Source of the DNA: Intrasporangium chromatireducens Q5-1
Lineage (GTDB): Bacteria; Actinomycetota; Actinomycetes; Actinomycetales; Dermatophilaceae
Assembly (NCBI RefSeq): GCF_000576575.1
Contig: NZ_AWQS01000013.1
Location: forward strand, 1 to 42,764
Direction of reading: 5' to 3'
Length of the DNA stretch: 42,764 nt
The position numbers and the translations under genes were made by a program. The first letter of the stretch is position 1; every line of letters begins with the position of its first letter. A model generated the notes under the pieces. That model saw only the letters and a program-made list of their open reading frames with translations, was not told where the DNA came from and did not search any database. Shown here piece after piece: positions 5,663 through 28,920 of this stretch.

Positions 5663-5670
5663 CCACCGGC

Positions 5671-5791
5671 CCTGGTTCGAGGTATTCGGCGGACACCACT
5701 GACCGGTAAATACCTCGAACCCGCGAGCCCCGGACCTGGTTCGAGGTATTCGGCGGACACCACTGACCGGTAAATACCTCGAACCCGCGAG
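5671..5791. repeat. Tandem duplicated hairpin (64-bp period) between convergent genes
   Basis: Two 57-bp copies (5671-5727 and 5735-5791) appear identical. Each holds a perfect 13-bp inverted repeat, GGTTCGAGGTATT paired with AATACCTCGAACC (5674-5686 with 5709-5721; 5738-5750 with 5773-5785). The pair fills the gap between convergent stops at 5662 and 5794 and probably works as a double bidirectional terminator. Confidence 0.8.
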
Positions 5792-16774: not shown

Positions 16775-16872
16775 GTCGGTTGGTGGCCTCTCGACGTGGT
16801 TGTCGTCGAGAGGCCAGCAACCGACGAAGGGCCAGTAGCCGACGAAGGGCCAGTGACCGACGAAGGGCCCGT
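16775..16872. repeat. Intergenic hairpin plus three 18-bp tandem units (copy 1)
   Basis: Arms at 16775-16796 and 16804-16825 form a 22-bp stem with one mismatch, containing TGGCCTCTCGACG/CGTCGAGAGGCCA. Three 18-bp units of type ACCGACGAAGGGCCAGTR follow (16819-16872), ending at the stop of the DUF1028 gene. A related element in inverted orientation is at 28761-28856. The remaining part of the 274-bp gap upstream of ftsH holds one GTATGCCGCTCACC motif (16753). Confidence 0.75.
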
Positions 16873-17699
16873 CAGTTCGGCGTCGCGGCCCGCAGCGCCT
16901 CGAGGACCCGACCGTCGATGCCCTCCGGGGAGAGCCGGGACTCGTAGTTGACGATGCCGGCCCAGTCGGCGAGCGCCGCCGCGACGTCGTCGTTCGGGTG
17001 ACCGAGCCGGGCGAGCCGGCCACGGACCTCGTCGGCGAGGTCACCCTCGAGCGGCAGGACGTCCTCGGCGTGGCCGAAGACCATCTCCCACTCCCCGAGC
17101 AGGCGGCCGACCTCGCGGACGGGGTCGGCGTGGTCGTCGACGCGAAGGTCGACGAGCACCCCCGAGCTGTCGTAGCCGGCACCCGGCTGAACGGCATACA
17201 GGGCAGCACTCTGCCGACCACGTGCGTCACCGCCGGCGGCGTCACCCGCCCCGAGCGCGGCGAGGAGGCGGCGGGCGAACGGCTCGCCCTCGGAGGCGAG
17301 CCAGGCACGCTCCATCTCCGCGACGACGTCCGGGCCGGTGAGGATGTTGCCCTGGATGGCGTATGCCGCGGTCCCCGAGTCGCGCGCGACCCCGCCGCAC
17401 CAGGGGAGGCAGTTCGCACCCGTGTAGGTCGCGGCGCTCGAGGGGCCGACGAGTCCGAGCTGGCGTTCGTCGCGGCCCTCGTCGGCTGCGGTCGTCGCCG
17501 CGATCGCCGCCTCGGCGTCGTCTCCGGCCTTGAGGCGCTCGAGCAGCTCGTCGATGTAGGCGACGCGGGCGAAGGACTGCGTCGCGACGGCTCCCACACC
17601 GGAGCGCGCCCCGGGCACGACCGCGCCGACGGCGAGGAACTTGCTGGCGACGGCGACGCCGTAGGCGTCACCGACCCGCGCGACGATCGAGAAGGTCAT
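16872..17699 (-). CDS. DUF1028 family protein (Ntn-hydrolase-like)
   Basis: 275 aa. The N terminus TFSIVARVGDAYGVAVASKFLAVGAVVPGARSGVGAVATQ is the DUF1028 signature, which has an Ntn-hydrolase fold. YAIQGNILTGPDVVAEM near residue 120 and GYDSSGVLVDLRVDDH near 185 are also typical. The C-terminal 70 residues (REVGRLLGEWEMVFG to AGIVNYE) resemble a putative peptidoglycan-binding or helical add-on. Its biochemical role is unknown. ATG at 17699 lies 11 bp after the hpt stop. The open frame further upstream shadows hpt. Confidence 0.85.
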   Translation of the reverse strand: MTFSIVARVGDAYGVAVASKFLAVGAVVPGARSGVGAVATQSFARVAYIDELLERLKAGDDAEAAIAATTAADEGRDERQLGLVGPSSAATYTGANCLPWCGGVARDSGTAAYAIQGNILTGPDVVAEMERAWLASEGEPFARRLLAALGAGDAAGGDARGRQSAALYAVQPGAGYDSSGVLVDLRVDDHADPVREVGRLLGEWEMVFGHAEDVLPLEGDLADEVRGRLARLGHPNDDVAAALADWAGIVNYESRLSPEGIDGRVLEALRAATPN

Positions 17700-22732: not shown

Positions 22733-23665
22733 ATGGTCGAGCTCCGGATCTTCACCGAGCCCCAGCAGGGCGCGACGTACGACGACCTCCTCGCCGTGGC
22801 GCAGGCCGCCGAACGGCTGGGCTTCGGCGGGTTCTTCCGGTCCGACCACTACCTGCACATGGGCGGCGACGGGGGGCCCGGGCCGACCGACGCCTGGGTT
22901 ACCCTCGCCGGGCTCGCGCGCGAGACCTCGACGATCCGGCTCGGCACGCTCGTCACGTCGGCGACGTTCCGGCTCCCGGGACCCTTGGCGGTGGCCGTCG
23001 CCGGCGTCGACCAGATGAGCGGCGGCCGGGTCGAGCTCGGCCTCGGGGCCGGCTGGTTCGAGGAGGAGCACCGCGCCTACGGCATCCCGTTCCCTGCCCT
23101 CGGCGAGCGGTTCGACCGGCTCGAGGAGCAGCTCGAGGTGGTCACCGGGCTGTGGGCGACGCCGCCGGGCTCCCGCTACTCGCACGACGGCGCGCACTAC
23201 CCCATCGTTGACTCCCCCGCGCTCGCGAAGCCGGTCCAGGACGGCGGCGTCCCGATCATCATCGGCGGCGGGGGCCGTCGCCGCACGCCCGCACTCGCAG
23301 CACGGTATGCCGCTGAGTTCAACGCCGCTTTCCGGTCCGCTGACGAGACGGCTGAGTTGTTCAAGGGCGCCCGACAGGCGTGCTCCCGGATCGGGCGCGA
23401 ACCCTCGTCTCTCGCCCTGTCGGCGGCGCAGGTGGTGTGCCTTGGCCGGGACGAGGCGACCGTGCGGCGCCGGGCCGCCGCGATCGGGCGCGAGGTGGAC
23501 GAGCTGCGGGCCAACGGACTGGCGGGGACGCCGGACCAGGTGGCCGACAAGCTCCGGTCCTTCGCCAAGCTCGGCGCGGAGCGGATCTACCTGCAGGTCC
23601 TCGACCTGTCCGACCTCGACCACCTCGTCGACATCGCCGAGACCGTCCTGCCACTCGTCGCCTGA
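22733..23665 (+). CDS. LLM class F420-dependent oxidoreductase
   Basis: 310 aa bacterial luciferase-like TIM barrel. FGGFFRSDHYLHMGG near residue 32, TIRLGTLVTSATFRLPGPLAVAVAGVDQMSGGRVELGLGAGWFEEEH near 65-110 and VPIIIGGGGRRRTPALAARYAAEF near 175 are characteristic of the F420-type subgroup; the substrate is unknown. It begins 12 bp after ppa. A GTATGCCGCTGAG motif lies inside it at 23305. Confidence 0.88.
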   Translation: MVELRIFTEPQQGATYDDLLAVAQAAERLGFGGFFRSDHYLHMGGDGGPGPTDAWVTLAGLARETSTIRLGTLVTSATFRLPGPLAVAVAGVDQMSGGRVELGLGAGWFEEEHRAYGIPFPALGERFDRLEEQLEVVTGLWATPPGSRYSHDGAHYPIVDSPALAKPVQDGGVPIIIGGGGRRRTPALAARYAAEFNAAFRSADETAELFKGARQACSRIGREPSSLALSAAQVVCLGRDEATVRRRAAAIGREVDELRANGLAGTPDQVADKLRSFAKLGAERIYLQVLDLSDLDHLVDIAETVLPLVA

Positions 23666-23739
23666 GAACCAGGCCCCCGGTACGGCCGGGTGTGGTCGAC
23701 CGCGGCTGAGCGCCGCACTCCTCCCCTGCCGCTGATGAC

Positions 23740-24080
23740 CTGCTGCGTGTGAGTAAGCAGGGGGCCCGCTGCTGCGTGTGAGTAAGCAGGGGGCCCGCTG
23801 CTGCGTGTGAGTAAGCAGGGGGCCCGCTGCTGCGTGTGAGTAAGCAGGGGGCCCGCTGCTGCGTGTGAGTAAGCAGGGGGCCCGCTGCTGCGTGTGAGTA
23901 AGCAGGGGGCCCGCTGCTGCGTGTGAGTAAGCAGGGGGCCCGCTGCTGCGTGTGAGTAAGCAGGGGGCCCGCTGCTGCGTGTGAGTAAGCAGGGGGCCCG
24001 CTGCTGCGTGTGAGTAAGCAGGGGGCCCGCTGCTGCGTGTGAGTAAGCAGGGGGCCCGCTGCTGCGTGTGAGTAAGCAGG
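23740..24080 (+). repeat. 29-bp tandem repeat array, about 11.8 copies
   Basis: The unit is CTGCTGCGTGTGAGTAAGCA plus GGGGGCCCG. Eleven full units and one partial unit of 22 bases follow each other without spacers, and all appear identical. Neighbouring units create AGCAG-G-GGGCCC-G-CTGCT, a near-perfect 18-bp palindrome, at every junction. The plus strand has TGA and TAA in each unit. The array fills most of the 503-bp gap between the oxidoreductase and marR; 23666-23739 shows nothing else. Confidence 0.95.
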
Positions 24081-24136
24081 TGCCGAGTGCTGACCACCGG
24101 CAGGGGGTCGGGATGCCAAAAATGAGACGCGGCACA

Positions 24137-24159
24137 TTTACATAGTTTGTCTATGTAAA
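24137..24159. promoter_or_regulatory. MarR operator palindrome
   Basis: TTTACATAG-TTTGT-CTATGTAAA is a perfect 9-bp inverted repeat with a 5-bp centre. It overlaps the -10 box TAAACT (24156-24161). Its AT content stands out sharply from the surroundings. The adjacent MarR gene makes autorepression likely. Confidence 0.75.
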
Positions 24160-24161
24160 CT
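24156..24161 (+). promoter_or_regulatory. -10 box of the marR-MFS operon
   Basis: TAAACT lies seven bases before ATG at 24169, with no ribosome site, so the transcript is probably leaderless. Confidence 0.55.
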
Positions 24162-24168
24162 GTGCGTC

Positions 24169-24618
24169 ATGACCAGCCGGCAGAGTGCAGCGAACGACCT
24201 CCTCAGGGCCGCCGCGCGCCTCAACCGGTGGGCGAGCCAGGCAGCGGCGTTCGACGTCCCCTACGCACAAGCGCGGCTGCTGGCCCTCATCGACGAGATG
24301 CAGCCGGTGCGGATCAGCGCGCTCGCCGAGGCCGACCACAGCAGCCAGCCGACCGTCACCACCCAGGTGCAGCGGATGGAGACCGCCGGGTGGGTGCTGC
24401 GGCAGACCGATCCGGACGATGCGCGGGCCACCCTCGTGAGCCTCTCCCCCGCCGGCGCGCAGGCGCTCGACGAGGTTCGGGCCGCCCGCGCCCAGGTGCT
24501 CGACCCCGCTCTCGACCGGCTGGACGGGCCGGCGCTCGAGCGGGTGCACGCCGCCGTGTCGGTCATGACCGAACTGCTCGAGCTCGCCTCGAGCACCGCT
24601 TCCCGAAAGGACTCCTGA
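24169..24618 (+). CDS. MarR family transcriptional regulator
   Basis: 149 aa winged-helix protein. The recognition helix region RISALAEADHSSQPTVTTQVQRMETAGWVLRQTDPDDARATLVSLSPAG (about residues 45-95) contains the usual wing with D-x-R. It probably represses its own promoter through the palindrome at 24137-24159 and controls the MFS gene six bases downstream, with release by a small molecule. Confidence 0.92.
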   Translation: MTSRQSAANDLLRAAARLNRWASQAAAFDVPYAQARLLALIDEMQPVRISALAEADHSSQPTVTTQVQRMETAGWVLRQTDPDDARATLVSLSPAGAQALDEVRAARAQVLDPALDRLDGPALERVHAAVSVMTELLELASSTASRKDS

Positions 24619-24624
24619 CCCCCT

Positions 24625-25839
24625 ATGTGGCGCCAACCCAAGACCGTCTGGTCCGTCGCCTTCGCCTGCGTGATCTCCTTCATGGGGATCGGGCTCGTCG
24701 ACCCGATCCTCAAGCCGATCGCCGACGAGCTCGGCGCCGGCCCCTCGCAGGTGTCGCTCCTGTTCACCAGCTACATGGCCGTCATGGGCATCGCGATGCT
24801 CGGCACCGGCTGGGTCTCGAGCCGTGTCGGCGCCAAGCGCGCCCTCATGATCGGACTCGTCCTCATCATCGCCGGCTCCGCCTTCGCCGGCATGCAGGAC
24901 ACCGTGGGCGGGATCGTCGCCTTCCGGGCGCTGTGGGGACTCGGCAACGCACTCTTCATCGCGACCGCTCTGTCGACCATCGTGAGCGCCGCGAGCGGCT
25001 CGGTCGGCCAGGCCATCGTCCTCTACGAGGCGGCGCTCGGCGTCGGTATCGCGGCCGGCCCCCTCCTTGGCGGCTGGCTCGGCGGGATGTCGTGGCGGGC
25101 GCCGTTCTTCGGCGTCGCCGTGCTCATGCTCCTCGCCCTCGCCGCGACGGCCGTCACCCTGCCGCCGACGCCTCGGGCCGAGCGCCCGTCGTCGCTCCTC
25201 GCCCCGCTCCGCGCGCTGGGCCATCGGGGGCTGCTCACCGTCGGCATCACCGCGCTGCTCTACAACTTCGGCTTCTTCACCCTGCTCGCCTTCACGCCCT
25301 TCCCACTCGACATGGGAGCGCAGGCCATCGGGTTCATCTTCTTCGGCTGGGGCCTCCTGCTTGCCATCACGTCGGTCTTCGTCGCACCGTGGCTCCAGCG
25401 CCGGATCGGCACTCTGCCGGGCCTCGTCGGCGCCCTCGTCGGCTTCGCGGCCGTGCTCGCCGTCATGGGCTTCGGGGCCCACACCAAGCCGGTCCTCGTC
25501 GTCGGGGTGGTCCTCGCTGGCGCCTTCCTCGGGATCAACAACACCCTCGTCACCGAGACGGTCATGAAGGTCTCCCCCGTCGAGCGGCCGGTCGCGTCAG
25601 CGGCCTACAGCTTCGTCCGGTTCGGCGGCGGCGCCGTCGCCCCGTGGCTGGCCGGCACCCTCGGCGAGCGCTCGATCCAGCTGCCGTTCTGGGTCGGGGC
25701 CGGCGCGGTGCTTCTCGGGGTCGCCGTCCTCCTGACGGCCGCGCCCATCATCCGGCGGATCGACCAGCAGCCCGGCCACGGGGCCGAGGCGGTCAACTCG
25801 GAGATCGAGGCCGAGGCTCTGACGGTCGGCGACGCCTGA
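24625..25839 (+). CDS. MFS transporter under MarR control
   Basis: 404 aa with about 12 transmembrane segments. Motif A-like GTGWVSSRVGAKRALMIG is near residue 60, and RALWGLGNALF near 97 matches motif B. GIAAGPLLGGWLG near 138 resembles motif C of drug/proton antiporters. This supports efflux of a toxic compound or metabolite. It follows marR by six bases and is surely co-transcribed. It ends 12 bp from the stop of the convergent MFS gene, leaving no room for a terminator between them. Confidence 0.88.
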   Translation: MWRQPKTVWSVAFACVISFMGIGLVDPILKPIADELGAGPSQVSLLFTSYMAVMGIAMLGTGWVSSRVGAKRALMIGLVLIIAGSAFAGMQDTVGGIVAFRALWGLGNALFIATALSTIVSAASGSVGQAIVLYEAALGVGIAAGPLLGGWLGGMSWRAPFFGVAVLMLLALAATAVTLPPTPRAERPSSLLAPLRALGHRGLLTVGITALLYNFGFFTLLAFTPFPLDMGAQAIGFIFFGWGLLLAITSVFVAPWLQRRIGTLPGLVGALVGFAAVLAVMGFGAHTKPVLVVGVVLAGAFLGINNTLVTETVMKVSPVERPVASAAYSFVRFGGGAVAPWLAGTLGERSIQLPFWVGAGAVLLGVAVLLTAAPIIRRIDQQPGHGAEAVNSEIEAEALTVGDA

Positions 25840-28648: not shown

Positions 28649-28760
28649 GCCGACATGGTCCCACCGCTCGCGATGCGGTCGCCAATCGGTCCGTATGCCG
28701 CTCACTCGCGTCCCGCGCGACCGCGCGGTCCGCGCGTCGCCGGCTCAGCGCCGTACCCGC

Positions 28761-28856
28761 GTCGGTTCGTGGCCCTTCGACGGTTGGTGGCCCTTCGTCG
28801 GTTGGTGGCCCTTCGACGATTGAGACGTCGAGAGGCCAGTAACCGACGAGAGGCCA
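28761..28856. repeat. 18-bp tandem units plus hairpin (copy 2, inverted)
   Basis: Three units of type GTCGGTTGGTGGCCCTTC (28761-28778, 28779-28796, 28797-28814) are followed by arms TGGCCCTTCGACG and CGTCGAGAGGCCA forming an imperfect hairpin. It is the reverse-oriented relative of the element at 16775-16872. It occupies the 284-bp divergent gap between the malic enzyme and the P-type ATPase, together with a GTATGCCGCTCACT motif at 28693. Confidence 0.75.
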
Positions 28857-28920
28857 CTCGTGGCGAGTGAACAGTTCGTCACGAAACGGCGGTCCGGCGT
28901 GACGCCGCCGGCTCCCCCGG

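Follow-up and report, generated by a model that had tools for sequence, protein, structure and literature searches.

Tandem arrays of stem-loop units between genes in Intrasporangium chromatireducens Q5-1

Bacterial minisatellites (VNTRs), such as the mycobacterial MIRUs, are tandem, near-perfect repeats in intergenic regions at several loci per genome. CRISPR arrays consist of repeats separated by unique spacers of ~25–40 nt, and in type III toxin–antitoxin systems, the RNA repeats are directly followed by the toxin gene. REPs, according to the excerpted passages of PMC3733652, are mostly intergenic hairpins that are located 3' of genes and are often joined into larger foldable structures, GTAG-23 being one of the REP families named there. 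Like the arrays described here, the families of stem-loop sequences in PMC2267715 and PMC1590033 are defined by a common hairpin; the passages of PMC2267715 are not about tandem arrays, and the word 'tandem' is absent from its main text.

The window analysed here is a stretch of 42,764 nt that represents an entire contig (C13) of the 4.8-Mb draft genome of strain Q5-1 (G000; 660 contigs). It contains a 29-bp tandem array, which is a member of a small intergenic stem-loop repeat family comprising six arrays in this genome. These arrays resemble REPs and BIMEs, as portrayed in the same passages of PMC3733652, in being short palindromic intergenic hairpins that lie 3' of genes and differ in their loops, and the hairpins are within the 20–40 bp range of REPs. 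However, in place of numerous dispersed units, 31 full hairpins are present at six sites with no convincing single copies; in place of an unpaired GTAG/CGTC end tag, the hairpins are bordered by CTGATGAC-like flanks or GGGGCCCG linkers; and the units are arranged head-to-tail in tandem with a fixed 8-bp palindromic linker. The gene for RAYT (Y1_Tnp, PF01797), the partner of GTAG-REPs, was detected in neither of two draft genomes of the genus, whereas the control genomes were positive. Because the tag, the high copy number, and the RAYT gene are missing, the arrays were not filed as REPs. They share tandem near-identical units with VNTRs, but the unit is self-complementary and palindrome-linked, which distinguishes them from the MIRU type. 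Assignment to CRISPR arrays was rejected because the loops are 9–11 nt in length and identical in the window array, and assignment to type III toxin–antitoxin repeats was rejected because the genes downstream of the arrays (all but that on contig C91) encode MarR, HTH_3 (two arrays), LysE, and Thiamine_BP proteins. As far as the sequence evidence goes, the arrays are real and local intergenic stem-loop repeats and not an efflux switch.

Structure and immediate context of the window array

The features of the array region are as follows (window coordinates, with strand where assigned).
22733..23665, + strand: luciferase-like monooxygenase gene (PF00296), upstream and co-directional, whose stop codon precedes the array by 74 nt
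23732..23739: flank at the left end, CTGATGAC (sequence reading)
23740..24080: 29-bp tandem array of hairpins CTGCTGCGTGTGAGTAAGCAG (x12) and linkers GGGGCCCG (x11) (TRF and direct reading)
24081..24088: flank at the right end, GTGCCGAG, which is CTCGGCAC on the other strand (sequence reading)
24137..24159: operator-like palindrome TTTACATAG-TTTGT-CTATGTAAA before marR, with a similar palindrome in relatives
24169..24618, + strand: MarR family regulator (PF01047), outside the array system
24625..25839, + strand: MFS transporter (PF07690), outside the array system

TRF reported a period of 29, 11.8 copies, 100% matches, 0 indels, and a score of 682, and direct reading resolved the array into 12 identical 21-nt hairpins of the form CTGCT-N11-AGCAG separated by 11 identical 8-nt linkers, bearing out the perfect array of ~11.8 copies that had been proposed in the first-pass annotation. 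The exact copy number could be an assembly estimate, since the genome is a 660-contig draft and two other arrays of the family are located at contig ends (that on C91 runs off the end, and that on C338 ends 7 nt short of one). The array was rejected as coding DNA because its period is not a multiple of three and the unit contains stop codons on the plus strand; the open minus-strand frames that cross it were regarded as a by-product and not as genes. The monooxygenase, marR, and MFS genes are all co-directional; 56 nt separate the right end of the array from the operator palindrome, and 88 nt separate it from marR.

A six-array family and its distribution

A BLAST search with the array region identified sister stretches on two further contigs of the same genome, and a search for the junction AGCAGNGGGCCCNCTGCT with 0–1 mismatch identified 26 sites at six places. 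This threshold is selective (26 sites versus two for the reversed control), whereas that of up to two mismatches is not (27 versus 28). A covariance model derived from 15 pairs of units recovered the identical six places. Thus, the check for the unit elsewhere, which the first-pass annotation had advised, yielded five sister arrays (C17, C86, C91, C116, and C338), all with the 29-bp pitch of the window array. The arrays are listed below with the distance from the stop codon of the upstream gene to the first hairpin.
C13 (window): 11 junction sites, 12 full hairpins; 74 nt, luciferase-like monooxygenase
C17: 2 junction sites, 3 full hairpins; 72 nt, LytR_C
C86: 3 junction sites, 4 full hairpins; 73 nt, BKACE
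C91: 2 junction sites, 2 full hairpins and a cut third; 28 nt, PfkB
C116: 4 junction sites, 5 full hairpins; 23 nt, aminotransferase class III (by sequence probably hemL)
C338: 4 junction sites, 5 full hairpins; upstream gene off the contig

All five arrays with a known upstream gene thus follow closely behind a stop codon, the position expected of an intrinsic terminator (C338 is excluded from this count). The neighbours on C17 and C86 were taken from ORF lists and Pfam, the crude gene calling being wrong on one side. Both neighbours are known for four arrays; these all have co-directional genes on either side, and none lies between divergent genes, a number too small for statistics. The genes beside the six arrays have no common function.

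Across the six arrays, the TGCT/AGCA arms and GGGCCC are invariant and the 9-nt centre varies; this invariance is partly a matter of ascertainment, as the junction itself served as the search pattern. The readable array ends are formed by a hairpin without the GGGCCC linker. Read toward the hairpin, the 8-base flank starts with CTG or CTC in all 10 readable ends and finishes with AC in eight of them, with a consensus near CTGATGAC; the cut right end of the C338 array reads TGATGAC. The flank motif TGATGACCTGCTG with up to one mismatch occurs 12+25 times in G000 (control 0+2) and 18+22 times in the sister genome G001 (control 4+3), and it is not specific on its own because it is similarly common in this genome, which has no array.

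For dispersed single copies in G000, the pattern CCTGCTGN{7,12}CAGCAGG gave five matches versus four in the control; three are in arrays, and the two others (C28 and C111) were rejected as coding DNA by eye. Weak matches on C150, C28, and C280 were taken as chance. The covariance search scored the best 150 of ~7,100 first-look candidates in each of the two genus genomes, so weak single hairpins may be missed. Its strongest non-array match in these genomes (E 5e-5) and a second match (E 0.0025), the best in G001, were likewise taken as chance, being coding DNA by eye.

Arrays of this type were recognised in neither 185 further genomes from the family nor 395 from the order (overlapping samples). 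The junction with up to one mismatch matched in 20 of 186 family genomes, the 19 besides G000 having one or two sites each versus 26. The tandem pattern with up to three mismatches matched in 60 of 396 order genomes: G000 has 21 sites versus one for the reversed control, and the other 59 have one to three sites each, 51 of them with no more sites than in their own reversed-pattern control, eight with one site versus none. Among the tandem-pattern matches listed outside G000, all carry two or three mismatches. Phages and plasmids gave no match to the array; a lone 20-mer on one contig in the junction scan of viral contigs was discarded, and a single match in an exact 19-mer scan of genome contigs, in Hoylesella, was taken as chance. 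The sole match in Rfam (E 0.23) was far under its gathering score. Neither the unit and junction sequences nor those of two further repeats were found in the literature searched, and no description of such arrays was recognised there (titles and abstract starts, with subscription papers largely outside).

The efflux operon adjacent to the window array has a wider distribution. MarR-like matches, many of them distant, are present in all 59 family genomes searched (own included), and at 10 of the 19 relatives' loci compared, the marR–MFS stretch gives a single alignment with the window. A CATAG...CTATG-like palindrome precedes marR in all seven relatives inspected in marR orientation, whose genomes lack the array (L017 in G001, L018 with TATAG, L019, L022, the less perfect L023, L024, and L027). 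Since regulator, palindrome, and transporter are kept without the array, the array is not needed for marR regulation. The first-pass annotation had suggested that copy number could alter expression of the efflux gene and give phase-like variation, and such a contingency locus, with the marR–efflux operon tuned by the number of units, could be argued from the 56-nt distance to the operator palindrome and from the fact that the number of perfect repeats can change. However, the array family adjoins unrelated genes, the operon persists elsewhere without it, and the array lies outside both operator and coding region; we therefore consider this reading highly improbable. The operon appears to be a bystander, an efflux switch not being supported by the sequences compared, and a misleading reading of the locus in terms of efflux regulation is thereby removed. 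The monooxygenase gene that precedes marR seems truncated in G001 (L017), the match stopping at about window position 23158; this truncation precluded an empty-site comparison with G001.

Turnover, folding, and competing explanations

Any two loops of one array differ, on average, at 0.46 of nine bases (96 pairs; excluding the window array, 1.47 with n = 30), compared with 3.56 for loops from different arrays (369 pairs, using whichever orientation matched better). The end units carry the most deviant loops in C116, C17, and C86, and changes of the outermost arm base also occur internally in C116, C338, and C86. The much smaller difference within arrays, together with the deviant end units, is the pattern expected from slippage or unequal exchange, although it is not proof of either. 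The arrays have apparently been amplified or homogenised locally, and recently in the case of the window array, in line with the recent expansion or homogenisation suggested in the first-pass annotation. One unit in C116 combines a perfect stem of 9 bp with a 3-nt loop and may be near the ancestral form.

Compensatory stem changes were not found: none of 18 pairs changes on both sides, and eight never vary. Paired cells amount to 79.3%, exceeding every slid version (maximum 65.3%) but falling below the shuffle mean of 81.9%, and all 500 shuffles reach 79.3%; together with the lack of compensatory pairs, this means that selection on a folded RNA form is not supported. Inner stem pairing exceeds the level in shuffled loops if every distinct loop is included (23/39, P 0.006) but not if each array is represented by one loop (9/18, P 0.18).

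In predicted folding, 146 nt of the window array folds better than dinucleotide shuffles on either strand (z −4.9), the whole intergenic region that holds it gives z −6.9, and the four other arrays folded (all but C91) are stable, with z −3.6 to −8.5. A hairpin at each junction around GGGCCC had been proposed. The hairpin potential is supported by these comparisons and by the predicted −25.1 kcal/mol for GGGCCC paired with the next GGGCCC around a CTGCT/AGCAG stem; GGGCCC cannot, however, close on itself, and the bare junction folds at just −7.3 kcal/mol. The near self-complementarity of both unit and linker would allow an array either to fold back on itself in its entirety, as a long nested hairpin, or to form a series of individual hairpins. 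A search of window 23600–24300 for a hairpin with a T-run behind it found none, so a terminator role would need a T-poor type.

We consider it probable that the arrays constitute a REP-like stem-loop family, which was amplified and homogenised in place at six intergenic sites at the 3' ends of transcripts, with the efflux operon as a bystander. The ancestor would have been a short palindromic hairpin near CTGCTGCGT-NNN-ACGCAGCAG with a palindromic GGGCCC linker, which came to occupy the six sites by a dispersal route that we can only infer. Slippage or unequal exchange would then have amplified and homogenised it at each site, the outcome being two to 12 similar units per site with site-specific loops, and identical units in the window array. 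Given their location just behind coding regions, transcripts of the upstream gene would carry the arrays as long nested hairpins at their 3' ends. There, the arrays might prevent read-through, cap the transcript or make its end more stable, or merely be tolerated.

Plain functionless intergenic minisatellites (VNTRs), produced by replication slippage of palindromic DNA at sites that tolerate it, would account for the perfect identity of the window array, the array-specific loops, the absence of compensatory changes, and the lack of recognised arrays in the 185 relatives searched. We regard this explanation as possible but rather unlikely, since local slippage alone would not give common arms and linker at six sites with an unchanging 29-bp pitch, for which dispersal or a constraint is also required, and the location shortly after a stop codon of all five arrays with a known upstream gene also argues against it. 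Alternatively, AGCAG-S-GGGCCC-S-CTGCT every 29 bp could be a DNA-level protein site (an operator or a nucleoid-protein, gyrase, or partition site) with the 9–11 bp between as spacer; constant spacing and the stronger conservation of the GGGCCC palindrome and inner arms relative to the loops would fit such sites. However, the readable ends consist of the hairpin and not of the GGGCCC palindrome, the six sites are small and private, and their neighbours share no function, which makes this reading improbable. The family offers a nucleotide-level view of a hairpin repeat that seems to expand and homogenise separately at each site.

A parallel array and other repeats

In a member of another genus of the same family (G016; 20 stretches totalling 400 kb, examined with TRF and a generic scan), L167:3920-4004 contains three CACTGA...TCAGTG hairpins with a 30-bp pitch and a GGTACC junction, an architecture similar to that of the G000 arrays in unrelated letters. 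Related hairpins occur at L172:16528, L173:952, and from L183:2171 onward, the last set comprising three hairpins with longer spacers and an altered middle one. No CACTGA-N(6-18)-TCAGTG hairpin was present in 480 kb of G000. The generic scan identified four clusters in G016 (versus none simulated), one of which is the L167 array, and eight in the 480 kb of G000 (versus one in one simulated copy), a sample that includes arrays chosen on purpose; five of the eight belong to the array family, the window array being missed because its perfect arms are just 5 bp. Tentatively, tandem arrays of self-complementary units with a palindromic linker (GGGCCC, or GGTACC in the other genus) might be a recurrent, separately evolved intergenic class in the family, arising from dispersed stem-loops by in-place amplification, concerted within a site, and forming long nested hairpins at transcript ends, although we find this doubtful at present. 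The six natural loci and the parallel case with other letters make slippage, palindrome instability, and transcript-end effects measurable.

Several other repeats were observed alongside. The motif GCGGCATAC (GTATGCCGC; in the window, for example, at 1872, 21883, and 23304) is hugely over-represented in G000 (685+680 versus 28+22 for the reversed string). Across 53 genera, it is strongly raised in many and at control level in others, and it varies within one genus (916+934 in G107, 0+2 in G106). In 400 kb of G016, its longer consensus is near GAGCGAGCCCAGCGGCATACGG; 77 of 121 copies are outside gene calls in one crude calling, looser calling places 47 between genes and 49 inside, and close inverted pairs show a 21-nt offset in five of 13 cases. 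The exact palindrome-plus-tail CTGAGCCGGCTCAGCGGCATAC occurs six times in the G000 sample and four times in G016. The motif may be REP-like or uptake-sequence-like; no Y1 transposase was found in G000 or G001. Three of the six arrays have a copy of GTATGCCGC within ~65 nt (L053:3155-3163, L101:5702-5710, and L102:1558-1566), an association that is hard to tell from chance given the enrichment of the motif between genes.

A second family of hairpin repeats, with an 18-bp unit like GTCGGTTGGTGGCCCTTC and inverted partners, is present in the window (16778-16873 and 28755-28860) and at L195:5742-5850 and L197:17513-18590, the L197 copy residing within an array of six 164-bp units in which GCGGCATAC is also present. 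A 63–64 bp unit, TTCGAGGTATT...AATACCTCGAA, is found in two tandem copies each at window 5666-5791 and L185:15435-15561, 3 and 35 nt past the end of a crude gene call. Finally, near-perfect tandem arrays with 78–83 bp units occur in two genera (L054:1272-1687, L199:13962-14368, and L204:12924-13107; L174:14452 and L180:15565 in G016), several of which have, by eye, a common one-strand core like GAGGACACGAGCGAGGAACGAGCGAGGCCCGGAG.
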